Below are positions 46,365 through 64,000 of a stretch of DNA of 64,000 bases, one piece after another. The first letter of the stretch is position 1. Each line of letters begins with the position of its first letter. Both the position numbers and the translations under genes were made by a program. The notes beneath the pieces are model-generated. The model did not search any database. It was given only the letters and a program-made list of their open reading frames with translations, and was not told the DNA's origin. Origin of the DNA: Notoacmeibacter ruber (GTDB taxonomy: Bacteria; Pseudomonadota; Alphaproteobacteria; Rhizobiales; Rhizobiaceae); contig NZ_RCWN01000001.1 in the NCBI RefSeq assembly GCF_003668555.1, positions 2,959,541-3,023,540 of the forward strand, in the 5' to 3' direction.

Positions 46365-46449
46365 GCCCAGGTGGCGGAATTGGTAGACGCGCACGGTTCA
46401 GGTCCGTGTGCCGCGAGGCGTGGAGGTTCGAGTCCTCTCCTGGGCACCA
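46365..46449 (+). tRNA. tRNA-Leu (CAG), probable integration site
   Basis: An 85-base tRNA with encoded CCA (46447-46449). Acceptor arms GCCCAGG/CCTGGGC, D-arm GCGGAATTGGTAGACGC, anticodon stem CACGG/CCGTG with loop TTCAGGT (anticodon CAG), a long variable arm and T-arm GGAGGTTCGAGTCCTCT. A tyrosine integrase gene starts 187 bases downstream, so the 3' end of this tRNA is the likely attachment site. The tRNA is intact, as expected when the element restores the 3' end. Confidence 0.97.
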
Positions 46450-46469
46450 TTTTCCAGTTTTCTACAGGA

Positions 46470-46520
46470 CATTGAAGCGCACAGAAGTCTTGGAATTCAA
46501 GGCTTCTGTGCGCTTCAATG
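46470..46520. repeat. 18-base perfect inverted repeat downstream of tRNA-Leu
   Basis: CATTGAAGCGCACAGAAG (46470-46487) is perfectly inverted at 46503-46520 around a 15-base centre that itself contains CTTG/CAAG. No T run follows on either strand. It starts 21 bases after the tRNA and may be a recombination or transcription-stop element. Confidence 0.85.
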
Positions 46521-46560
46521 TATCAGTATCGTCCGATGCAGTCCGCTGACATCCTGAGTT

Positions 46561-46626: not shown

Positions 46627-46635
46627 GGAGTGGCC

Positions 46636-47832
46636 GTGCCTCTGACCGATACGAAGATTCGTAATCTCAAAGCTGCGGAGAAGCCGATAAAGCATTCGGA
46701 CGGCGGAGGGCTTCATCTGCTCGTCACGGCAAACGGATCAAAGCTGTGGCGGCTGAACTATCGGTTCTACGGAAAGCAGAAGACGCTTTACATCGGCGCT
46801 TGGCCGGCAGTCAGTCTCGCTGACGCTCGTTTGAGACGCGAATCCGCCAAGAAGTTACTCGCCCAGTCCATCGATCCTGCCGCCCAGGCTAAACATGAAC
46901 GAATTGAACGCCAGGCAAATTTCGCGAACACGTTCGGCGCAATAGCCGACGAGGTTCTGGAACGAAACGAAAAGGAAGGGTTGGCGGCCGTCACGATCAA
47001 CAAGAAGCGCTGGTTGATCGATCTGGTCAGGCCTGCGCTAGGGAAGCGGCCCGTCAGGGATATCACCGCTCCCGAACTCTTGAACGAACTGCGCAAAGTG
47101 GAAGCGAAAGGCAATTATGAGACGGCCCGCCGGCTTCGTGCGGTTTGCGGGCAAGTCTTTCGCTACGCCGTGATCACGTCACGCGCAGATTTCGACCCAT
47201 CCGCTGCACTTCGTGGCGCGTTAATCAGCCCCACCGTGACGTCCCAAGCCGCGATTACCGAGTGGGGTAAGTTTGGGGGATTGCTGCGAGCCATTTGGGG
47301 GTATGACGGCCATGCTTCGACCCGATATGGTCTGCAACTGCTAGCCCTACTCTATCCGCGTCCTGGCGAGCTTCGTCAGGCGGAATGGTCCGAAATTGAT
47401 CTCGAAGCCGGTGTCTGGACGATCCCGGCCCAGAGAGCAAAAATGCGGCGCGAGCATCGGAAGCCGCTTTCGAAGGAGGCTGCCGATATCTTCGCGGAAG
47501 TACACAAGCTGAATGGCTTCAGCAAATACGTCTTCCCAGCAATTCATACAACGCAGCGACCCCTGAGCGAAAATACATTCAATGCGGCTCTCAGAAGAAT
47601 GGGCTTCGATAAGCACGAGATGACCAGTCACGGTTTCCGGGCTTCCGCATCAACTTTGCTGAACGAGAGCGGGCGGTGGAATCCGGATGCCATCGAGGCC
47701 GAACTCGGTCATGTCGGTGCAGATGAGGTGCGCCGAGCTTACCATCGAGCGCTGTATTGGGACGAGCGCGTCAGAATGACCGGTGCATGGGCCGCGCAAA
47801 TAAGCGAAGCTGTCGGCATCAGCGCTAGATAG
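46636..47832 (+). CDS. int: Tyrosine-type integrase, P4 family
   Basis: A 398-residue site-specific recombinase. N-terminal DUF4102 arm-binding domain (PLTDTKIRNLKAAEKPIK, then the GGGLHLLVTANGSKLWRLNY region), central SAM-like domain, and the catalytic domain with Arg242 (YPRPGELRQAEW), His332-x-x-Arg335 (SHGFRAS), His359 (ELGHVG) and nucleophile Tyr374 (HRALYWDER). All catalytic residues are present, so it looks functional. GTG at 46636 lies 7 bases after AAGGAG; GTG at 46630 abuts the Shine-Dalgarno sequence. Its closeness to tRNA-Leu fits a tRNA-targeting element. Confidence 0.93.
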   Translation: MPLTDTKIRNLKAAEKPIKHSDGGGLHLLVTANGSKLWRLNYRFYGKQKTLYIGAWPAVSLADARLRRESAKKLLAQSIDPAAQAKHERIERQANFANTFGAIADEVLERNEKEGLAAVTINKKRWLIDLVRPALGKRPVRDITAPELLNELRKVEAKGNYETARRLRAVCGQVFRYAVITSRADFDPSAALRGALISPTVTSQAAITEWGKFGGLLRAIWGYDGHASTRYGLQLLALLYPRPGELRQAEWSEIDLEAGVWTIPAQRAKMRREHRKPLSKEAADIFAEVHKLNGFSKYVFPAIHTTQRPLSENTFNAALRRMGFDKHEMTSHGFRASASTLLNESGRWNPDAIEAELGHVGADEVRRAYHRALYWDERVRMTGAWAAQISEAVGISAR

Positions 47833-49528: not shown

Positions 49529-52108
49529 ATGACGATCCATCAGAAAACCCGTTCTACGTTCAAATTGTCATTACCGAAGGGCGATTGGAAGCACCTTCTG
49601 CCAGAATTCGAGTCAGCCGCAATGGCCGCAAAAATGCGGAGAGCGGTTGTCAACGCGCTAAAAAAGCTTGAACTTTCACATGCGAAGATGGACCACTGTC
49701 GACCGAATAACAGATGCGAGAGTGGCCTGTGTCCTTCGTGTGTTCGTCGCCGCCGTCTTGCGCTGGGTGAGTTCTTCGACAGTCGCCAACTCATTTTTAT
49801 CGACTGGAAGTTCGCGACCATCCGTGTTGCGAACTGGATGAAGGAACCCGGTGATCACACTCGATTCGGGCCTCTGGCTCAACATCCAGACATCACGAAG
49901 TTTGTCGCCGAACTCCGCAAACTACGCAGAAGGGGCCTCCTCGTTATAGGATCCATTGAAGCGGTCTATGTTACTGTCGGCAATAAGCCAGAAGGAAAGA
50001 ACTTTCATATCCATGTGCTCATCAGCGGTCTGTCTTTAGAGCAGATTCGAGAAGCGGCCGGCGCTGCATTTACGCTCGACAACAGGGTTAAAAATCCAGT
50101 TTTGGTTCAGCCTGTTGATCGTCAGCCGCGCGATCTGATCAAGGCACTGACCTATGTCTACAAGCAGCCATTCTGGAAAAAATCAAAGACCGATCATGGA
50201 GATGTTGGGCGGAAACAATTTCCAAAGCCCAAGGAGCTGCGTGAACTGATCCGGAATTATGGCGAACATCGTCTTGATGAGCGACTCATTCTCGAGGGTG
50301 TCCGCTGGGAAGGTACCAAATTCTCAATCGTCGAACAGCTGTTGCCGGATCAGCTTAAGATCCCTTACCTGCCTTTGAATGTTAAAACTGTTGGTGAAGG
50401 AGGTACGGTAAGTGGCAACACTGGTATCGCTGAACCGCAGCTAAAGTCAGACGACGGTGACCTGTTATCGAATGATACCGTATCGGCTGAAGGCGCGCAC
50501 CCCGTACACCCTTCTAAAGGCACGTCGATCAAATTGCTCCGGCAGATTGAATCGCTCGATGACGGAACCGTCAGCCTCTTCATTCAATATCCGAAGAATG
50601 ATGGGTCCGTCGGACAACTTTCACTCCCGCGCGAGACCTTGGTCAAGTCGGCTGATTTCAAGAGCCTTCTAATAGGAAAGGGTGCTGACGCCTCGCTAAA
50701 TTATAAGTCTGCAGCGGACACGCTTCTGTCGCAGCGAGCAGCCGTCACCATTCATTCGACGGCAACACCGGGTTGGCATGACAACTACTTTATCTGCCAT
50801 GCCGGCGGATGGGGAAATAGGCCCGAAAGCGTTGCAGAGGTTATCTTCGCTCCATCGAGCGATTCTTACCCCCTCAAAGGTTCTACAGGCGACATCTCAA
50901 CGTTCCTGGCGGGTATCCACGCGCTGTTTGAACAATCGGATATCCTGCTTCTGGCATATCTGTGTGCTCTGTTGCCGCCGCTAGCTATGAGATTGGGGGT
51001 GAAAAGCGGGTTCTCCGTCAATCTCGTCGGCGAATCTACCACCGGTAAGACGTTGACGCTACGTTTGGCTCAAGCGATCAGTAGCCGCGCAGAGGAAAAA
51101 GACCTTCAAACGTTCAATCTCACCCCCGGCGCGTTGGAGCCGGCTCTTCGTGAGCGAAGCGGGTCTGCTGTCGTCTTCGGCGACATCAAGGCAGCCAAAG
51201 AGAAAGGCCTTGGACATGTTGAAAAGATTCAGCAACTGATTTTCGCAGTTCACGGAAGAGATGGAAGAGGCACACTTCATCAAAGGGAAGTTCCCATTCC
51301 GTTTTGTCTGGTCATGTTGTCCGACGAAATTTCACTTGAGGAACGTTATCGGCAAGCGAAGCAAAAACTCGAAACAGGAGACCGGGTCCGCTGTATTGAA
51401 TTGAGAATTCCGTCCCGAGACAAGGGAGGGGTATTCAATCGCCTAGAAAATCCGAACGATGCGATGGCAGCGGCTCAAGACTTAGAAAATCTGATCGATA
51501 GCGCCTACGGAACCGTTTTCCCCGACTGGATTGCAGCTTTAGCTGGAAAAACAGTTGAATCGCTGAAATCAGATTTCAATGCGGAAGCGAAGCGTTTCAC
51601 CGAACGTCTCGACATTTTGGATGGACTGGGAAGACGCTTCTCAGTTTCCTTCGGCTATCTCGCTGCGACAGCAAAAATTGCGGAGGCAGCTAATTTGCTA
51701 TCCCCAAAAGCGAAAGCAGGAGAGGCTTTGTCTCGACTTTTCGAAGACGCAGCGGCCGGCCTTCGCCCAGAAGAGATCGACTTAACGATTGAATTTGAAC
51801 GATTGGCAAATTTTGTCGACCAGAAAGATAAAGTTCCCACCGCAAGTAGAGGAAAGGCTCTTCAAGAGGACACGGGGGCGTTCTTCCGCAACGAGGGTGC
51901 CGTCATTCACCTCTACGTGAGATCGGAAGAATTGGGTCGAGTGGTGGGATCGAAGGTTGAAGTCTTCATAGCAAAGCTTCTGGATGGAGGAGCGGTGATC
52001 CGCGGCAAAAGCGGAAGAACGAAGAATGTGAAGCAGAAAGGTATTGGGCGTTCTCGATATTTGGATATCGACTACGGCAAATTTTTAGCGATAAGAGCGA
52101 AATTGTAA
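49529..52108 (+). CDS. Probable replication protein: HUH-type Rep domain fused to DUF927 ATPase
   Basis: 859 residues. N-terminal part: a cysteine cluster (Cys57, 63, 68, 71) like that of rolling-circle plasmid initiators; a hydrophobic strand with Glu144; HIHVLI (His160-x-His162, fitting the HUHUUU metal motif); and TYVYK (Tyr209-x-x-Lys212, fitting YxxK). Together these suggest a nicking-joining domain. The C-terminal part is DUF927: PGWHDNYFICHAGGWGNRP, then Walker A GESTTGKT (501-508) and a Walker-B-like VVFGD (548-552), as in helicase-type proteins of mobile elements. The likely role is autonomous replication of the excised element. DUF927 is a firm call, HUH an inference from motif order. 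Confidence 0.75.
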   Translation: MTIHQKTRSTFKLSLPKGDWKHLLPEFESAAMAAKMRRAVVNALKKLELSHAKMDHCRPNNRCESGLCPSCVRRRRLALGEFFDSRQLIFIDWKFATIRVANWMKEPGDHTRFGPLAQHPDITKFVAELRKLRRRGLLVIGSIEAVYVTVGNKPEGKNFHIHVLISGLSLEQIREAAGAAFTLDNRVKNPVLVQPVDRQPRDLIKALTYVYKQPFWKKSKTDHGDVGRKQFPKPKELRELIRNYGEHRLDERLILEGVRWEGTKFSIVEQLLPDQLKIPYLPLNVKTVGEGGTVSGNTGIAEPQLKSDDGDLLSNDTVSAEGAHPVHPSKGTSIKLLRQIESLDDGTVSLFIQYPKNDGSVGQLSLPRETLVKSADFKSLLIGKGADASLNYKSAADTLLSQRAAVTIHSTATPGWHDNYFICHAGGWGNRPESVAEVIFAPSSDSYPLKGSTGDISTFLAGIHALFEQSDILLLAYLCALLPPLAMRLGVKSGFSVNLVGESTTGKTLTLRLAQAISSRAEEKDLQTFNLTPGALEPALRERSGSAVVFGDIKAAKEKGLGHVEKIQQLIFAVHGRDGRGTLHQREVPIPFCLVMLSDEISLEERYRQAKQKLETGDRVRCIELRIPSRDKGGVFNRLENPNDAMAAAQDLENLIDSAYGTVFPDWIAALAGKTVESLKSDFNAEAKRFTERLDILDGLGRRFSVSFGYLAATAKIAEAANLLSPKAKAGEALSRLFEDAAAGLRPEEIDLTIEFERLANFVDQKDKVPTASRGKALQEDTGAFFRNEGAVIHLYVRSEELGRVVGSKVEVFIAKLLDGGAVIRGKSGRTKNVKQKGIGRSRYLDIDYGKFLAIRAKL

Positions 52109-56386: not shown

Positions 56387-58030
56387 TTACACCCGACTCC
56401 TATCATTTGGTAACAAGGGCAGGCCTAGCTCTCTCAGAAATTTATTGTGCCGCGCGGTCGCCAGCTGGACGTCCTTCTCAATCTTAACTAGCTTCTTATG
56501 TGTCGCTGAAAGGTCGATCTCGATCTCGTCTTCAGCGGTACTCACATAACGCGTGATGTTGAGATTGAAGTCGTTGGCTTCGATTTCATCCATGCTCACG
56601 CGGCGAGCATATCGATCAATCTTCTCTTCTGGACGTTGCTGATACGTCTCGATGATTTCGGCGATATGCTCGTCCGTCATGTAGTTCTGGCGCTTGCCCT
56701 TTTTGAAGCTCTCAGAAGCGTTGATGAAGAGAACATCGTCGGGCTGCTTGCACTTCTTGAGAACAAGAATGCAGACGGGGATGCCGGTTGAGTAGAACAG
56801 ATTCGCAGGCAGGCCGATGACCGTGTCGATATGCCCGTCCTTCAGCAGTTTCTCGCGAATCTTGGCCTCCGCACCACCACGGAACAACACACCGTGCGGC
56901 AGGATGATTGCCATCACGCCGTCATCCTTCAGGTAGTGGAAACCGTGCAACAGGAAAGCGAAGTCGGCAGCTGATTTTGGTGCCAGTCCATGGTTCTTGA
57001 AGCGCATGTCTTCACCAAGCGCTTCAGTCGGCTCCCAGCGGTAGCTGAAGGGCGGGTTGGCAACCACGGCATCGAATGAAGGCTTCTTGGCCGGATTTGT
57101 CTCTCGCAGCATCTCCCATTCATTGGTCAGCGTGTCGCCGTGATAGATTTCAAACTCGGTGTCCTTTACCCCGTGCAGCAGCATGTTCATGCGCGCCAGG
57201 TTGTAGGTGGTGATGTTCTTTTCCTGGCCGAAGATTTTGCCGATGCTACCGCCAGCTTTTTTCATTTGCTGCCGGACGTTGAGCAGAAGCGAGCCGGAAC
57301 CACAGGCGAAATCCATAACGCTTGCCAAATGTTTGCGCTTCCCGGTTTTCGGATCCTGGCTGTCCAGCGCCACAATGCCCGACAGGATGTCGGAGATACG
57401 CTGCGGCGTGTAGAACTCCCCTGCCTTTTTGCCGGAACCTGCAGCAAACTCTCCGATCAGGTATTCATAGGCATCGCCAAGCGTGTCGCTATCGGTTGAA
57501 AACCCTTTCAGCTCTTCAGCGATTTTGGAAATGATCGAGCAGAGTTTAGCGTTGCGCCCCTCGTAGGTTCTACCGAGTTTCTCGGAGCCGAGATTGATCT
57601 CCGAAAAGAGGCCCGAAAACGTGCTCTGGAACGACTTGTTTTCGATGTATTTAAAACCCTCCTGCAGGGTGTGGAGCAGTTCGCCGCTCTGCGTTTTGGC
57701 CATATGGGCGATGCTGGTCCAAAGGTGCTGGGGCCGGATGACATAATGTGTCTTCAGCCGCATCTGTTTTTCGAAGGCGGCAACGTCATCCGGGTTGTTC
57801 TCATACCAGACTGAGAGAGACGGGCGCCCACCGTTGCCGATAGCGTTAGGGTCCGGGTAATCGCTGCCAAGTTCCTTCCGTGCTGCCTGTTCGTAATTGT
57901 CGGAGAGATAGCGGAGGAAGAGCAAAGCCAGCATGTAATCGCGGAAGTCGTCCGCGTTCATCGCGCCACGCAGTTGGTCGGCGATGCCCCAGAGTGTTTT
58001 CCCGAGTTGTTTTTGTTCTGGTTCGGTCAT
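56387..58030 (-). CDS. hsdM: Type I restriction-modification, DNA methyltransferase subunit
   Basis: 547 residues. N-terminal HsdM helical domain (TLWGIADQLRGAMNADDFRDY), then an N6-adenine methyltransferase: SAM motif I VMDFACGSGSLLL (about 238-250) and catalytic motif IV ANPPF (about 324-328). With HsdS it methylates host DNA at the recognition sequence. It is the last gene of the operon; its ATG overlaps the stop of the ATPase gene (ATGA). Both motifs are intact, so the host should be protected. The C-terminal region (LNITRYVSTAEDEIEIDL) is typical for contact with HsdS. Confidence 0.96.
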   Translation of the reverse strand: MTEPEQKQLGKTLWGIADQLRGAMNADDFRDYMLALLFLRYLSDNYEQAARKELGSDYPDPNAIGNGGRPSLSVWYENNPDDVAAFEKQMRLKTHYVIRPQHLWTSIAHMAKTQSGELLHTLQEGFKYIENKSFQSTFSGLFSEINLGSEKLGRTYEGRNAKLCSIISKIAEELKGFSTDSDTLGDAYEYLIGEFAAGSGKKAGEFYTPQRISDILSGIVALDSQDPKTGKRKHLASVMDFACGSGSLLLNVRQQMKKAGGSIGKIFGQEKNITTYNLARMNMLLHGVKDTEFEIYHGDTLTNEWEMLRETNPAKKPSFDAVVANPPFSYRWEPTEALGEDMRFKNHGLAPKSAADFAFLLHGFHYLKDDGVMAIILPHGVLFRGGAEAKIREKLLKDGHIDTVIGLPANLFYSTGIPVCILVLKKCKQPDDVLFINASESFKKGKRQNYMTDEHIAEIIETYQQRPEEKIDRYARRVSMDEIEANDFNLNITRYVSTAEDEIEIDLSATHKKLVKIEKDVQLATARHNKFLRELGLPLLPNDRSRV

Positions 58031-59238
58031 GGCGTGGCTTCCTCGGCGGCTTCCGCCACTGGCTCGGGAACAAGTTTTCGATTGAAGGGGTGGCGTTCGA
58101 CGAAGCCTCTGAGGATCGTCATGAAATAGTCTCTGGTGTCGTCGCCCATCTCAGCGGGCTCATACATGGAGTATTTGCCGTGGCTCAACAGATCGACGAA
58201 CCGTTGATGAAGAATGCCATCAGCGTCGTCGGCCGCTTCCTTAATGCAGGCGGAGAAATGCTCATGTCCAAGGAAAAGTGATGTCTTCTCGAGAAGCGTC
58301 CGCAGGATGTTAAAGTGGAATGTTTTCGCTTGTCCGCTCTGCGCAACGAGCCATAGATCGGCCAAGGCATTTACATGATAGAACTGCGGAGTGTCGCCAG
58401 TCTGTTCAGCGAGGATGTAGCCTTCCGTCAGGCGGTTTCGCTTGAGAACATATTGAGTTGGCCTGCCGACACGGTTCTTCAGTTCGTAGTGAAGCACGTT
58501 GAAGAACAGCGCATGGTGGGTCGAAACCACCGTCTTGATGGGCCGCTGTGCCTCCCGATAGAGCTGGACAAGATGATTGCCAACGACAATTGCATTGTGC
58601 TCATCCAGCGATGAAATCGGGTCGTCGATGTAGACATGCTCCACCCATTTGTAGGCTTCTGCGTCATCAAGGGCGAGTTGCAAGATGGCCAAGAAAAAGC
58701 ACCAGATGAAAATGCTCTCTTCGCCTCTGGAAATCTTGATGCCTTCCCGATCCTCAGTGCGTGCGTTGTCACCTTCGCCCACCAGTACCTTTCGTGAGAA
58801 AGCGACTTCTGCGCTTGCGATCTTCCCGGTGCTCTTGTCAAAGTCAAAGGTGAGTTTGAAATCGAAGTCTGCATAACGGTCCAGAAGCGGTCGAATTCGC
58901 GTTTCGATCTCCAGTTCGTTGAGGCCGATGAAGAATTGCGAATTAGGATTGAGCTTCAGTTTCCGGTTGGTGTCGTTTTCGAGATCATTGTCCCAGTTGA
59001 AAAGGTCTTCGGTGAAGGCGTTGTAGTAGAGCGTATCACGGCTCAGAGCTGCGCCTTCTTTACCGATCTTCTTTCCAATGTCCTTGAACGCCCCGGAAAG
59101 GCGCGTTTTGCCTGTTCCGTTGAATGCGTAAAGCAGGATGAACGGGCTCTTGTCAGGTTTCCTTGCTGCACGGTCGGCAAGCTGTTTGCGAAGGTCAGTA
59201 GCAAGAGCGGGGAGGTCGGGGAAGGGAATGTCGGTCAT
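58027..59238 (-). CDS. PrrC-like ABC-type ATPase, probable anticodon nuclease, inside the hsd operon
   Basis: 403 residues. ABC ATPase part: Walker A AFNGTGKTRLS (38-48), signature ISRGEE (169-174), Walker B and D-loop VYIDDPISSLDEHN (202-215) and H-loop STHH (239-242). This order and spacing match the AAA_13/PrrC family. The C-terminal part holds Arg313-x3-Glu317 (RTLLE) and His353 (LLSHGKY), close to the Arg320, Glu324, His356 triad of E. coli PrrC, which cuts tRNA-Lys. Length is near PrrC's (396), and there is no long coiled coil or zinc hook, so it is not RloC. Start and stop each overlap neighbouring hsd genes by 4 bases. Confidence 0.78.
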   Translation of the reverse strand: MTDIPFPDLPALATDLRKQLADRAARKPDKSPFILLYAFNGTGKTRLSGAFKDIGKKIGKEGAALSRDTLYYNAFTEDLFNWDNDLENDTNRKLKLNPNSQFFIGLNELEIETRIRPLLDRYADFDFKLTFDFDKSTGKIASAEVAFSRKVLVGEGDNARTEDREGIKISRGEESIFIWCFFLAILQLALDDAEAYKWVEHVYIDDPISSLDEHNAIVVGNHLVQLYREAQRPIKTVVSTHHALFFNVLHYELKNRVGRPTQYVLKRNRLTEGYILAEQTGDTPQFYHVNALADLWLVAQSGQAKTFHFNILRTLLEKTSLFLGHEHFSACIKEAADDADGILHQRFVDLLSHGKYSMYEPAEMGDDTRDYFMTILRGFVERHPFNRKLVPEPVAEAAEEATP

Positions 59239-60452
59239 CGCTCGTTGCCTTCCACAGAGGGAAAGAGCTGCTGGAGCAGACCGCGCTTGTGCAGTTTTAG
59301 GCCTTCAAACTTCTGCGACTGTTTGATTGATCGAACGTCTACTGACGTGAGGCAAGACGCAACAATTCGCTGCTCGTTTGGATCATTCGGAACTCGAAGT
59401 AGTATATCGTTTAAGGCACAAACTGATAGCCCAGGTTGCGCTTGCCCTGTAGCAAACCGATTCAATTGAAGCGCATCGAATGCATGGTAGACAAAATCAA
59501 CTTCAAATTTTCCAAACACGCTTGCTACCAGCGCATGTTCTGTGGCTTGGAACTTGCCTTCGCACAAGTTTACGTTGCCGCATAACGCGCCCTGCCTTCC
59601 AATCAGAACGTATCGACCATCATGGTTGAAGCTCTCAACGTACCCTCTCAATCCATTGCCCCCGTAACAAGGGTATTTGCCCTTCGACTTTCTTTCCTCG
59701 ATCTCGGTCGCCGGGATAAAGTCTCCGGCTTTCAATGAGCATAGCTCCGATATTTTCTTCTCCTCCCACTCCCCTGCGTTCTGAAACTCCGGGAAGCGGA
59801 GGCGGGGGACGGTTTCGCCGGGTTGGGGGAAGAGCTGTTGCATCAGCCCTTTCTTGTGGGCGCGCAGGGCTTCCAGCTTCCGGCTCTCCGCATCGATCAG
59901 ATCGTCCAGCGAGCCAAGGCAATCGGCGATCTTTTGCTGCTCAGCTTCGGTTGGTGGAACCGCGATAGGCAACGCCAGCAGGTCGTTATTGCTGATTGCC
60001 ATCCGATCATGCCGTGCGCCGCTGTTTGACACTTTGCGAAGAAATCCATGCCAATGTGAGGAGGCAAAGTAGTGCGAAAAATAGTCGTGCTTATCGTTCG
60101 AGAACCGAAACACAGTGTATAGAGGCGACATAACGCCTGTACCGATGCGGTTCTTGGAAATGGGTCCAACTGGTGCGATGTTCGACACGCGAGGATTATA
60201 GACATAATCCCCCGTTTCAACGACGAAGTAGTTTTCAGTGTTTGTGGCGATGTCTTTCTCAAAATATTCGCGTTGATCGACAACACCGTATTCAGCCGAA
60301 TTCGTCAATGTTCGAAGCTTTGAACCATCGCCGTTTCGCTTTGTGCGACGCGTCGCGAGATGACCGAGTGGCTTAACATCCCACGTCGGTTCATCCGCAA
60401 ACTCCACAAACCGCAGCTTCGGCACCAGTTGTTTTTGCTTCTCCATCGCCAT
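59235..60452 (-). CDS. hsdS: Type I restriction-modification, specificity subunit
   Basis: 405 residues with two target-recognition domains, each followed by a conserved helix: central QQKIADCLGSLDDLIDAE...LMQQLFP (about residues 168-210) and C-terminal EQRIVASCLTSVDV...GLLQQLFP (about 360-398). It decides which two half-sites the complex reads; the sequence cannot tell which. ATG at 60452 shares its A with the hsdR stop; a GTG at 60455 is possible. Both domains look full length, with no frameshift. Confidence 0.95.
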   Translation of the reverse strand: MAMEKQKQLVPKLRFVEFADEPTWDVKPLGHLATRRTKRNGDGSKLRTLTNSAEYGVVDQREYFEKDIATNTENYFVVETGDYVYNPRVSNIAPVGPISKNRIGTGVMSPLYTVFRFSNDKHDYFSHYFASSHWHGFLRKVSNSGARHDRMAISNNDLLALPIAVPPTEAEQQKIADCLGSLDDLIDAESRKLEALRAHKKGLMQQLFPQPGETVPRLRFPEFQNAGEWEEKKISELCSLKAGDFIPATEIEERKSKGKYPCYGGNGLRGYVESFNHDGRYVLIGRQGALCGNVNLCEGKFQATEHALVASVFGKFEVDFVYHAFDALQLNRFATGQAQPGLSVCALNDILLRVPNDPNEQRIVASCLTSVDVRSIKQSQKFEGLKLHKRGLLQQLFPSVEGNER

Positions 60453-63400
60453 CACGCGCTCTCCTGCTCATAGGCAACGAGGCCTGAAATGTCGCGGCCC
60501 TGAGCGCGTTTGTTGAGAAGGGGCACAAGGTCGGCCATGAGCGCCAGCTCACGCTCGCGCCGCTGTTTCCAGCCGAGGCCAAGCGGCGCCATGAGGTCCG
60601 TCAGTTGCTCGCCGTCGAAGATCATGCGTTGCAAGATGGTATCGACAAAGCCCGAAAGCGCCTCCGGCTCCAGGCCGTGCTTACCCGCAAGCGTCGCGAT
60701 CTCCTTAGCCTGCTTTTCAGCTTTGAAGCGCGAATAGCCAGCACGCACCGCCGCTTCATCAAGCGCTTCGCCTTCTTTTAGCGAGCGCACGTACTCCGTA
60801 ATCTCCTCACGCTCATCCATGAATTTTGCATCGGACTGGATGAGGCCAATCAGCTGTTCGCGGCTGATCTTCAGTTTCTTCGGGTCCTGCCCGGAGAACT
60901 TGGCAATCAGCTTCATGATGTAGTCATAGTCGATAACGGCCGAGGCGAAGAGCACGAACTCGAAATCGAGCTGGTCGACATCCGTGTTGACGGGATCGCC
61001 CTCCGGCGTGCGCTTGCCCTGCTGCTCCTTCAGCCGTTGCGCCGTCTCTAAATAGGCACCCTTGAAGGCCCGCAATTCGTCCTTCGGCAGCGTCTTCCCA
61101 ATCTCGTCGCGCTGCTCCTCCGTCAGATCGGTATATTGGTCGAGCTGCGTTTGCAGGCGCTGCACTTCCTTGAAGCGTTTGACGAACTGAATGCGGGCAT
61201 CGTCGCCCTTCATGTTGCTGACCTGCTCGGGCGCAGCATCGACGCCCTGCGACTTCATGAAATCGCCAAGATCGGTCACCGCCTGCTTGAGCTGGCCGAT
61301 AACGACCGGAGCCTTGTCCACCAGCCAGATTTCACGAGCGCGCTCTGTCTGCGCACCGGAGAAGAGCGCAATTGCCGCGTCCACATTGTCCTGCTGGTTG
61401 CGGAAATCGAGAACATGGCCATAGGGTTTGGTGGCGTTCAGAACGCGGTTGGTGCGCGAGAACGCCTGAATCAGCCCATGGTTCTTCAGGTTCTTGTCGA
61501 CATAAAGCGTGTTCAGATATTTCGAATCAAAGCCGGTGAGCAGCATATCCACCACGATTGTGATGTCGATCTTTTCCGCGCCCTTTTTCGGCAGATCGCG
61601 GTTCGGGAATTCCTGATCCTTGATGCGCTTTTGGACGTCCTGATAGTACAGGTCGAATTCCGTGATCTTGTGGTTTGTGGCATAGGCCGCGTTGTAGTCG
61701 GCAATGATCGCTTGCAGCGCCTTCTTCTTGGCGTCCGGGTCTTTCTTGTAATCTTCTTTTTCCTGCTCCAAATCCTCCTGGATTTGCTTGATATTAGGAT
61801 CGCCTTCGGCGGGCGGCGAGAACACCGCTGCGATCTTCAGCGGCACATAGTCAGGGTGATCTGCCTTGATCTTCTTTTGCAGTTTTTTGAACTCGTCCAC
61901 ATACTCAATCGCGTCATTGATAGATGCTGTCGCAAACAGGGCATTGAAGCGACGGTTGGCCGTCGCCGCGTCATGCTTGTCAATGATCGCTTGTGCAATC
62001 GCCTGCTTCGTCAATGCCTGGCCCGGCTTGCCCGCCGCGCCCTTCGGCTCGAAATAATCGACATGGAAGCGCAGGACATTCCTGTCCTCGATGGCATTCG
62101 TGATCGTGTAGGCGTGCAACTCCTGCTGGAACAGGTCCTCCGTCGTGCGCATCGAACCCATATCACCTTCGAATTGCTTGACGCTCGCGTTCTGTTCGAA
62201 AATCGGTGTTCCGGTGAACCCGAACAGCTGGGCGTTCGGGAAGAATTCCTTGATGGACTTGTGGGTCTCACCAAACTGCGAGCGGTGGCATTCGTCGAAG
62301 ATGACAACCATGCGCTTATCGCGAATGGGCTCCAGCCGCTGCTTGTAGGTCTCTTGGCCACGCGCAATCTTGCGCTTGTTGTGCTTGCTGCTCTCATCGA
62401 GGGCAAGGCCGAGTTTCTGGATGGTCGTGACGATGACCTTATCGGCGTAATCATCCGACTGGAGCCGCCGGACGAGTGAGGCCGTATTGGTGTTCTCCTC
62501 GACGCAGTTTTCCTGAAAGCGATTGAACTCTTCACGCGTCTGCCGGTCGAGGTCTTTGCGGTCCACAACGAACAAGCACTTGTGGATGCTCTCGTTCGAT
62601 TTGAGAAGCGTTGACGCCTTGAACGACGTAAGTGTCTTGCCCGAACCGGTTGTGTGCCAGATATAGCCGTTGCCGCTGTTCTGATTGATGCAATCGACAA
62701 TCGCCTTGACCGCATAGATTTGATACGGGCGCATCATCATCAGCTTCTGCTCGCTGGCGATGAGCACCATATAGCGGCTGATCATCTGGGCGAGTGTGCA
62801 TTTCGCCAGGAACTTGTCGGCGAAGTCCTCCAAGTGATTGATCTTGGTGTTGTCTTTCTCTGCGAACTGGTAGATCGGCAGGAACCGCTCATCCGCATCA
62901 AATGCGAAATGACGGGCATTGTTGTTGGCGAAGTACCAGGTCTCCGTTCGGTTGCTGACGATGAACAGTTGCACAAAGCTGAGGAGTGTCCGCGAGTATC
63001 CGTTGCCCGGATCATTCTTGTAATCGACAATCTGCTCCATCGCCCGGCGCGGACTGATGCCGAGATTTTTCAATTCAATCTGAACGACAGGCACACCGTT
63101 GATCAGGATCATCACGTCGTAGCGGTGATTGCTGTTGTCGGTGTTGATCCGCAGCTGGCTCACCACTTCAAATTGGTTCTTGCACCAGTCCTTGATGTTG
63201 ACGAGCGTGTAATTCAGCGGCGTGCCATCATCACGTATGAAGGCCTCGCGGTTTCGCAAAGTGCGCGCGGCTTCATACACGTTAGGCTTGATGATGTCTT
63301 CGATGAGCCGCTTGAACTCGCCATCGCTTAGCTTGACGCGGTTAAGTTCTTGGAACTTTTCTCTGAAATTGGCATCGAGCGTGGCCTTGTCGCGGATATC

Positions 63401-63475
63401 GTCGCGGTAGGTGTATTTGAGGTCTTTCAGTTTAGATATAAGGTCATCTTCTAGCCTGCGCTCAGAAATGCTCAT
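60452..63475 (-). CDS. hsdR: Type I restriction-modification, translocase/nuclease subunit
   Basis: About 1007 residues from the ATG at 63475 (MSISERRLED, the family start; the 39-residue extension lacks support). The PD-(D/E)xK nuclease site is Asp120 (RYDVMILING) and QIELKN (134-136 Glu-Leu-Lys). SF2 translocase: Walker A TTGSGKT (about 275-281), DECH box (394-397), GFTGTP (419-424) and motif VI AFSRTNRVLN. A C-terminal helical region for binding HsdM ends the protein. It is the first gene of the operon and looks fully active. The ~240 bases ahead should hold the operon promoter. Confidence 0.96.
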   Translation of the reverse strand: MSISERRLEDDLISKLKDLKYTYRDDIRDKATLDANFREKFQELNRVKLSDGEFKRLIEDIIKPNVYEAARTLRNREAFIRDDGTPLNYTLVNIKDWCKNQFEVVSQLRINTDNSNHRYDVMILINGVPVVQIELKNLGISPRRAMEQIVDYKNDPGNGYSRTLLSFVQLFIVSNRTETWYFANNNARHFAFDADERFLPIYQFAEKDNTKINHLEDFADKFLAKCTLAQMISRYMVLIASEQKLMMMRPYQIYAVKAIVDCINQNSGNGYIWHTTGSGKTLTSFKASTLLKSNESIHKCLFVVDRKDLDRQTREEFNRFQENCVEENTNTASLVRRLQSDDYADKVIVTTIQKLGLALDESSKHNKRKIARGQETYKQRLEPIRDKRMVVIFDECHRSQFGETHKSIKEFFPNAQLFGFTGTPIFEQNASVKQFEGDMGSMRTTEDLFQQELHAYTITNAIEDRNVLRFHVDYFEPKGAAGKPGQALTKQAIAQAIIDKHDAATANRRFNALFATASINDAIEYVDEFKKLQKKIKADHPDYVPLKIAAVFSPPAEGDPNIKQIQEDLEQEKEDYKKDPDAKKKALQAIIADYNAAYATNHKITEFDLYYQDVQKRIKDQEFPNRDLPKKGAEKIDITIVVDMLLTGFDSKYLNTLYVDKNLKNHGLIQAFSRTNRVLNATKPYGHVLDFRNQQDNVDAAIALFSGAQTERAREIWLVDKAPVVIGQLKQAVTDLGDFMKSQGVDAAPEQVSNMKGDDARIQFVKRFKEVQRLQTQLDQYTDLTEEQRDEIGKTLPKDELRAFKGAYLETAQRLKEQQGKRTPEGDPVNTDVDQLDFEFVLFASAVIDYDYIMKLIAKFSGQDPKKLKISREQLIGLIQSDAKFMDEREEITEYVRSLKEGEALDEAAVRAGYSRFKAEKQAKEIATLAGKHGLEPEALSGFVDTILQRMIFDGEQLTDLMAPLGLGWKQRRERELALMADLVPLLNKRAQGRDISGLVAYEQESA

Positions 63476-63712
63476 CGTAGAGAAGCCACTTTTCTCGTAT
63501 AAGAATTGAGTCTCGACAGTCGCGTTGGGGCTTGTGTAGCGGATGATTGGCGATAAGTGGAGCCTGCCGTCTGGAAACGAATAACAGCGCATGGGTACGG
63601 GCTTAATTCGAAGCGCTGTCTTTTCTGTCGATCCTCGCGATCTGAACGGTTGCGACAGCTACTATTGCTGCCGAGGTGTAGTCTCTTCGCCTATCGGCGA
63701 GAGCACAAGCAG

Positions 63713-64000
63713 TTAACATCGGATCGCATCAATGATCCGGTAAACTTGCATCCGCGAGCATCCCACCTTTCGGGCGATGGCCGAGACGGTCTTACCGGCT
63801 TTCCGAAGCTTCAGTACCTCATCGCGATCAATTCGGCGTTTGCCGCCCTTGTAGATGCCTTTCGACTTGGCGCGCTCAATACCTTCGCGCTGTCGCTCCT
63901 TAATGAAACGACGCTCCATTTGTGCAACCATGCCGAGCACGGTCAGGATCACATGGCCCATTTCGCCCCGGGTGGAAACGTGGGGATCCAGAACGGTAAC
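63713..64000 (-). CDS. Serine recombinase (resolvase/invertase), 5' end cut by window
   Basis: The frame stays open to the right edge, so the N-terminal catalytic part with the nucleophile Ser is missing from the window. Visible: VSTRGEMGHVILTVLGMVAQMERRFIKERQREGI, the C-terminal end of the resolvase catalytic domain and E-helix, then a Hin-type DNA-binding HTH (DEVLKLRKAGKTVSAIARKV...QVYRIIDAI). By size this is a small Tn3-resolvase/Hin-type enzyme. It lies 237 bases upstream of hsdR on the same strand. It may belong to a transposon or a second element; orientation makes co-transcription with hsdR possible. Confidence 0.88.
   Translation of the reverse strand, partial: VTVLDPHVSTRGEMGHVILTVLGMVAQMERRFIKERQREGIERAKSKGIYKGGKRRIDRDEVLKLRKAGKTVSAIARKVGCSRMQVYRIIDAIRC

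Follow-up and report, generated by a model that had tools for sequence, protein, structure and literature searches.

An ABC ATPase gene within a type I restriction operon

The window analyzed here is a 64,000-nucleotide stretch of the Notoacmeibacter ruber genome (NCBI RefSeq assembly GCF_003668555.1, contig NZ_RCWN01000001.1, positions 2,959,541 to 3,023,540 of the forward strand). On its minus strand it carries a type I restriction operon in the order hsdR-hsdS-prrC-hsdM, in which prrC (58027..59238) encodes a 403-amino-acid protein that combines an ATP-binding cassette (ABC) ATPase with a predicted nuclease domain. The restriction subunit gene hsdR spans 60452..63592, counted from the first ATG of its open reading frame (ORF), so that the true start may be internal; its product matches HSDR_N (121.0 bits), SWI2/SNF2 and EcoR124_C (229.9 bits) in Pfam, as well as TIGR00348 (395.0 bits). 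The specificity subunit gene hsdS (59235..60455) begins with a GTG codon and encodes two target-recognition domains (Pfam Methylase_S in two stretches; PADLOC Specificity_I, 358.3 bits), while hsdM (56387..58030) encodes the methylase (Pfam N6_Mtase, 353.8 bits, and HsdM_N, 85.1 bits; TIGR00497, 375.5 bits). Stop and start codons overlap by 4 nucleotides at all three junctions, and the hsdS start codon lies within the overlap with hsdR. The prrC frame has an ATG start and no internal stop, all four genes are open over their full length, and none looks broken. An earlier reading of the window's letters, hereafter the original prediction, had placed this gene between hsdS and hsdM of a type I operon; its ORF coordinates were exact, with 4-nucleotide overlaps on both sides. 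Judging from the EcoR124_C domain of HsdR and from homology, the Hsd partner would be type IC-like.

The protein matches the PADLOC PrrC model PDLC02360 at 414.6 bits (E value, 8.5e-125), and the second-best PADLOC model, for a candidate system, reaches only 49.6 bits. Pfam reports AAA_13 (55.7 bits), and NCBIfam reports only DndD, below threshold. As a yardstick we used P0121, an EcoPrrC-type protein annotated "anticodon nuclease" that is encoded in an hsdM-hsdS-prrC-hsdR operon on an Escherichia coli IncY plasmid. P0121 carries R320, E324, H356, and D287 at the positions published for E. coli PrrC (EcoPrrC), where the first three form the catalytic triad (PMC2610378 and PMC3014915). It scores 489.5 bits with the same PADLOC model and is 34% identical to the window PrrC over 354 aligned columns.

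Conservation was assessed in an alignment of 104 PrrC sequences, 101 of them different. The Walker A motif, AFNGTGKTRLS (residues 38 to 48; 59095..59127, minus strand, as are all prrC features below), has G43 and T45 in 104/104 sequences and K44 in 103/104. The signature ISRGEE (169 to 174), the Walker B/D-loop IDDPISSLDE (204 to 213), and the H-loop His241 are all present, as the original prediction had claimed; within them, S170, G172, E173, D205, D206, and H241 are invariant (104/104), as are H288 and H308 elsewhere. Residues 70 to 86 form a further strongly conserved block, and a 15-residue PrrC box is named in PMC3014915 and PMC2610378. In the C-terminal third, the alignment pairs R313 (58300..58302), E317 (58288..58290), and H353 (58180..58182) with the catalytic R320, E324, and H356 of EcoPrrC, each in 104/104 sequences. 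The original prediction had noted this Arg-x3-Glu...His set as lying near the EcoPrrC triad, and had missed a second arginine, R346 (58201..58203; EcoPrrC R349), which is likewise invariant (104/104). R346-x6-H353 fits the R-x4-6-H motif of the HEPN superfamily (PMC3710099).

The protein divides into a Rad50/SMC-type ABC ATPase head (residues 1 to 283; 58390..59238) and a C-terminal helical nuclease domain (residues 284 to 403; 58030..58389). The latter was modeled with AlphaFold2 from residues 283 to 403 alone, with a mean pLDDT (predicted local distance difference test) of 84.9, and its structural matches, weak and tied, include HEPN toxins. Among the structural matches listed there is no PrrC or RloC structure, which says nothing on whether such structures exist. 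A sequence search of the PDB with the window protein alone gave no match. With a profile it gave five chains at E values of 0.005 to 0.22 (two CCR4-NOT, two Rad50 [5da9 and 5dac], and one fluorescent protein), among which Rad50 alone makes sense. Rad50 and SMC heads are also the top structural matches of the PrrC head, which would suit a DNA-acting, Rad50/SMC-like accessory ATPase that aids restriction and is not an RNase. That alternative is very improbable, however: the structural match spans residues 5 to 290 only, and the C-terminal third beyond it keeps four catalytic-type residues in 104/104 sequences, which a non-nuclease would not need.

Distribution, gene order, and phylogeny of PrrC

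Homologues of the window PrrC are numerous. Of the 7999 candidates scored in a homology search (the ones with the most shared words), 7989 passed an E value of 1e-5; the best 120 of these 7989, the query aside, are 73 to 81% identical to the window PrrC. Matches were present in 113 of 72,556 plasmid records, 96 of them covering at least 80% of the query, and in none of 50,697 phage records at 1e-5. Among 299 sampled Pseudomonadota genomes, 44 matched the PrrC model at an E value of 1e-3. Fourteen, the N. ruber genome included, did so with at least 415 bits over nearly the whole model (the frame at L007 is shortened), and the next hsd gene downstream of prrC in these was hsdM in nine and hsdR in five (at L013 after a short hsdS-like hit). 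The rest of the 44 scored below 52 bits, mostly in frames of about 600 to 940 amino acids, which are RloC-like lengths; the exception was one split match whose best piece reached 173 bits.

RloC is described as a protein of 658 to 897 amino acids with a zinc-hook CXXC coiled coil, rarely linked to type I restriction-modification (PMC2610378). It shares with the window PrrC both the ABC motifs and the R-x3-E...SH anticodon nuclease motif (PMC2610378), and the window gene might accordingly be read as an RloC-like nuclease that acts in response to DNA breaks by removing the wobble base. We consider this very unlikely. At 403 amino acids the window protein is about half as long as RloC; the zinc-hook coiled coil is a feature of RloC only, and since the window protein has just two cysteines, at 180 and 331, it has no CXXC zinc hook. 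Moreover, its gene is linked to a type I operon, and both the PADLOC model and the PrrC tree place it with PrrC.

Gene context was mapped by tblastn of hsd genes at 95 prrC loci, or 93 without the window's prrC and a contig that duplicated another. These comprise 79 top-scoring hits from searching species genomes with a window-led profile, among which close relatives are over-represented, 12 loci from the 299-genome sample, and two plasmid loci, with three pairs having identical proteins. The nearest upstream hsd or prrC match was hsdS at 90 of 93 loci (a second prrC at one and none at two), within 100 bases of prrC in 68 of the 90. Downstream, the nearest match was hsdM at 84 loci, hsdR at five, an hsdS-like sequence at one, and none at three. 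Some mapped loci have other genes in between.

In a tree of the 104 PrrCs, two clades separate with 100/100 support, and the division follows gene order, M-S-prrC-R versus R-S-prrC-M. For this comparison, rows seen with M-S-prrC-R formed one group and all others the second; the label requires one change on the tree. The M-S-prrC-R clade has 10 rows, the EcoPrrC type included, and the other has 94, including the window PrrC. The M-S-prrC-R order was seen in none of these 94 rows, of which six are without known context, the plasmid row L144 shows no hsdR, and, among those mapped by tblastn, 12 show no hsdR in the available stretch (one of them also no hsdS) and two no hsdM. In a limited literature search, a split of PrrCs by gene order was not described in the available parts of PMC2610378, PMC3014915, PMC3874165, PMC12707154, and PMC3710099, nor in the titles and first lines of abstracts of the other papers listed. 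The window PrrC sits in a 9-row clade whose eight nearest rows are 73 to 80% identical to it and include records named Phycisphaerales, Spirochaetales, Pyxidicoccus, Archangium, Bradyrhizobium, and Gemmatimonadetes. Such identity across several phyla points to horizontal spread of this subclade. Taken together, the PADLOC match, the residue match with P0121, the operon context, and the clade raise the PrrC-like candidate of the original prediction to a member of the PrrC family.

The E. coli counterpart differs in arrangement. E. coli PrrC with its type IC partner EcoprrI shares with the window the ABC motifs, R320/E324/H356, R349, D287, a type IC-like Hsd partner, and a prrC gene directly after hsdS; its order, however, is M-S-prrC-R, and the two proteins fall in the separate, fully supported clades. 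As for their partners, the window HsdM is 37% and HsdR 33% identical to those of the EcoPrrC-type plasmid locus L001. The R-S-prrC-M order is not new: its experimental precedent is PrrC170 of Klebsiella quasipneumoniae, whose four genes are listed as HsdR, HsdS, PrrC, and HsdM and were cloned with 300 nucleotides before HsdR (PMC11555353). The PrrC170 system restricts T1 and T7, and induced PrrC170 arrests growth, with tRNA-Lys as its target by tRNA sequencing (PMC11555353). Like the window protein it is an ABC ATPase with the same listed order, and its 35% identity to EcoPrrC compares with 34% between the window PrrC and P0121; activity has been shown for PrrC170, whereas the window PrrC is known here from sequence. 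The window thus departs from the prototype order hsdM-hsdS-prrC-hsdR, which would not be family-defining, since PrrC170 is reported with the window's order. The window PrrC shares 53.5% identity with PrrCs from K. quasipneumoniae plasmids (H4 and H5), and a plasmid relative from this species has the order hsdR...hsdS-prrC-hsdM, with two additional genes between hsdR and hsdS.

On a contig from a Rhodocyclaceae metagenome-assembled genome (MAG) (L042:355-9876), an hsdR hit separates two hsdS-prrC-hsdM units, and in a Halomonas MAG (L091) the interval from hsdS to hsdM contains two prrC hits. A candidate PrrC-HsdM fusion, P0117 (599 amino acids, both domains), was rejected: by eye its sequence ceases to be HsdM-like after a 113-residue HsdM_N match, and we therefore attribute it to a frameshift or misassembly of the contig.

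Predicted nuclease function and tRNA target

Given these results, we consider it quite likely that this PrrC is functional and serves as a latent anticodon nuclease guarding a type IC-like restriction enzyme. In this respect the window PrrC would be a standard guard of the PrrC type, and it is a well-formed but ordinary example of a known family. By homology, nuclease activity, a tRNA-Lys target, silencing by the Hsd complex, and a phage trigger are all predicted. The overlapping genes would couple synthesis of PrrC to that of HsdS and HsdM, and PrrC would use its Rad50-like ATPase head to dock on the assembled Hsd complex, where it would be held silent; when a virus disables the restriction enzyme, PrrC would probably cut the cell's own lysine tRNA, and the virus would be stopped. 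Because the gene sits on a tRNA-associated element that extends past the contig end, it could instead be a degenerate or unexpressed copy. With four full-length operon genes, 4-nucleotide overlaps, and catalytic residues kept, however, we give that explanation little credence.

Several observations weigh against a functional PrrC guard of this kind. The protein is only 34% identical to the EcoPrrC-type yardstick. The structural support for a HEPN fold in the C-terminal domain is weak and tied among several matches. The recognition neighbors of D282 differ, EcoPrrC F292 and S293 being Q285 and F286 in the window PrrC. The PrrC tree does not include PrrC170, and the best plasmid PrrCs, among the 60 listed of the 113 matching records, are about 55% identical to the window PrrC. 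At 48 loci with all four genes, PrrC tracks HsdM and HsdR only moderately (Mantel r of 0.57 and 0.54, compared to 0.90 between HsdM and HsdR) and does not clearly follow HsdS (r of 0.09; 69 of 1000 shuffles as high); partial correlations are 0.23 with HsdM and 0.09 with HsdR. Taken as proof of a physical partner, codivergence is weak. Finally, a close HsdM (E value of at most 1e-140) occurs in 13 of 398 Pseudomonadota genomes, the N. ruber genome included: nine have PrrC, three do not (G061, G165, and G180), and one (G209) is cut by a contig end. In those three of the 12 assessable genomes, PrrC was missing both from the results of the genome search and from the surroundings of hsdM, so it is dispensable, and the idea that this Hsd type requires it was rejected.

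One residue that bears on the target is D282 (58393..58395), which the alignment pairs with EcoPrrC D287, the residue that reads the modified wobble base of tRNA-Lys (PMC3014915). We favor tRNA-Lys as the target, with fair but not high confidence, because D282 is kept, because tRNA-Lys is the target of PrrC170, for which the window's gene order is also reported (PMC11555353), and because the host has a tRNA-Lys(UUU). The host gene, tRNA-Lys(TTT) with the loop CTTTTAA, was the one exact match in the genome to the tRNA-Lys anticodon arm used as query. The original prediction had called target and trigger unknown; for the target, tRNA-Lys now offers a testable prediction. The host genome has one match to the PrrC model, and its sole AAA_13 match at an E value of 1e-3 is the same gene.

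A PrrC whose catalytic core is kept and whose recognition surface has drifted might instead cut a tRNA other than tRNA-Lys. Asp occupies the D282 column in 68/104 sequences (9/10 rows of the M-S-prrC-R group and 59/94 others), and the remainder have Ser, Glu, Lys, Ala, Asn, Val, or Gln; the loop alignment is gapped here, and single rows may be off by one. Substrate variation has been anticipated from the variability of the recognition sequence (PMC3014915), and the altered neighbors of D282 point the same way. Since the window PrrC keeps Asp at this position and PrrC170 targets tRNA-Lys, we regard another target for the window protein as possible but rather unlikely. Across the family, the frozen nuclease core and the variable D287 position predict PrrCs with other tRNA targets. 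Eight sequences of one clade (L059, L062, L065, L069, L080, L090, L104, and L108) combine Ser at this position with Gln for Lys318, beside the catalytic Glu; all 8/8 sequences with this EQT for EKT have Ser at 282, a pair that may mark another tRNA target.

We speculate, tentatively and with more doubt than belief, that the R-S-prrC-M lineage forms a second, deeply separated PrrC branch that has Hsd partners of its own, a frozen core, and a diversifying tRNA-reading position, and whose members would have different target tRNAs and anti-restriction triggers, the window PrrC being triggered by inhibitors that are not Stp-like peptides. If so, the 8-member Ser282/EQT subclade would be the first place to seek a new tRNA target. 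The locus adds a well-formed mobile-element PrrC from a subclade whose sampled members are 73 to 80% identical to it across several phyla. Because the catalytic core is frozen while the wobble-contact residue varies, tRNA choice by PrrC becomes a question that could be answered with a few family members.

Mobile element and neighboring genes

The element that carries the operon continues beyond the end of the contig, which coincides with the end of the window at 3,023,540. Homology to the two congeners compared stops at 46449-46450, the 3' end of a tRNA-Leu(CAG) gene (46365..46449, plus strand; ARAGORN), and a tyrosine integrase gene comes next (46630..47832, plus strand; Pfam Phage_integrase, 68.9 bits, Phage_int_M, 96.5 bits, and Arm-DNA-bind_3, 88.1 bits). 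We conclude that an integrative element starts there, with the tRNA gene as its attachment gene. For its right end, the host assembly was searched for the flanking sequence of the congener and gave no match. Nineteen bases past the tRNA-Leu 3' end lies a 53-base inverted repeat (46469-46521; arms ACATTGAAGCGCACAGAAG and CTTCTGTGCGCTTCAATGT), possibly an attachment-site or terminator hairpin. An 859-amino-acid protein (49529-52108) has DUF927 at residues 331 to 562 and, N-terminal of it, an HxH stretch, FHIHVLI, that by eye resembles an HUH replication initiator; it is perhaps the replication protein of the element. The C-terminal part of a resolvase (63713-64000; Resolvase and HTH_7) is cut at the contig end.

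Other genes recur around these operons. In the PrrC-less genomes, the place between hsdS and hsdM is taken by a RhuM gene (G061 by Pfam, G165 by eye) or by Bro-N (G180). RhuM genes of about 1 kb thus occur in PrrC-less relatives and also beside prrC in both clades: there is one at L116:3208-4224, others follow prrC at L051, L070, L084, L091, L103, L104, L004, and L010, and others precede it at L040 and L062. One RhuM gene was confirmed (Pfam Virulence_RhuM, 351.8 bits), and the rest were named by eye; RhuM-like neighbors of PrrC and RloC are mentioned in PMC3710099. In G180, genes for a HepT-like HEPN ribonuclease and a nucleotidyltransferase directly follow hsdM (L152:730-1501; Pfam NTase_sub_bind, 132.6 bits, and HepT-like, 28.3 bits; Polbeta, 47.7 bits), a HEPN-type toxin pair that is perhaps a functional stand-in for PrrC. 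On a Klebsiella quasipneumoniae plasmid (L163:1449-5236), two genes separate hsdR from hsdS: one of 880 amino acids, with the annotation TrlF, and one of the Schlafen AlbA_2 type (80.4 bits). By eye, similar ORFs occupy this position in L048 and L058, from Azospira (both ORFs) and Pseudogulbenkiania (the second shortened). Lastly, L064 and L046, from Halomonas and Dechloromonas, have a 1054-amino-acid ORF between hsdS and prrC with a motif that by eye is helicase-like, SLPTSSGKTLIAQF.

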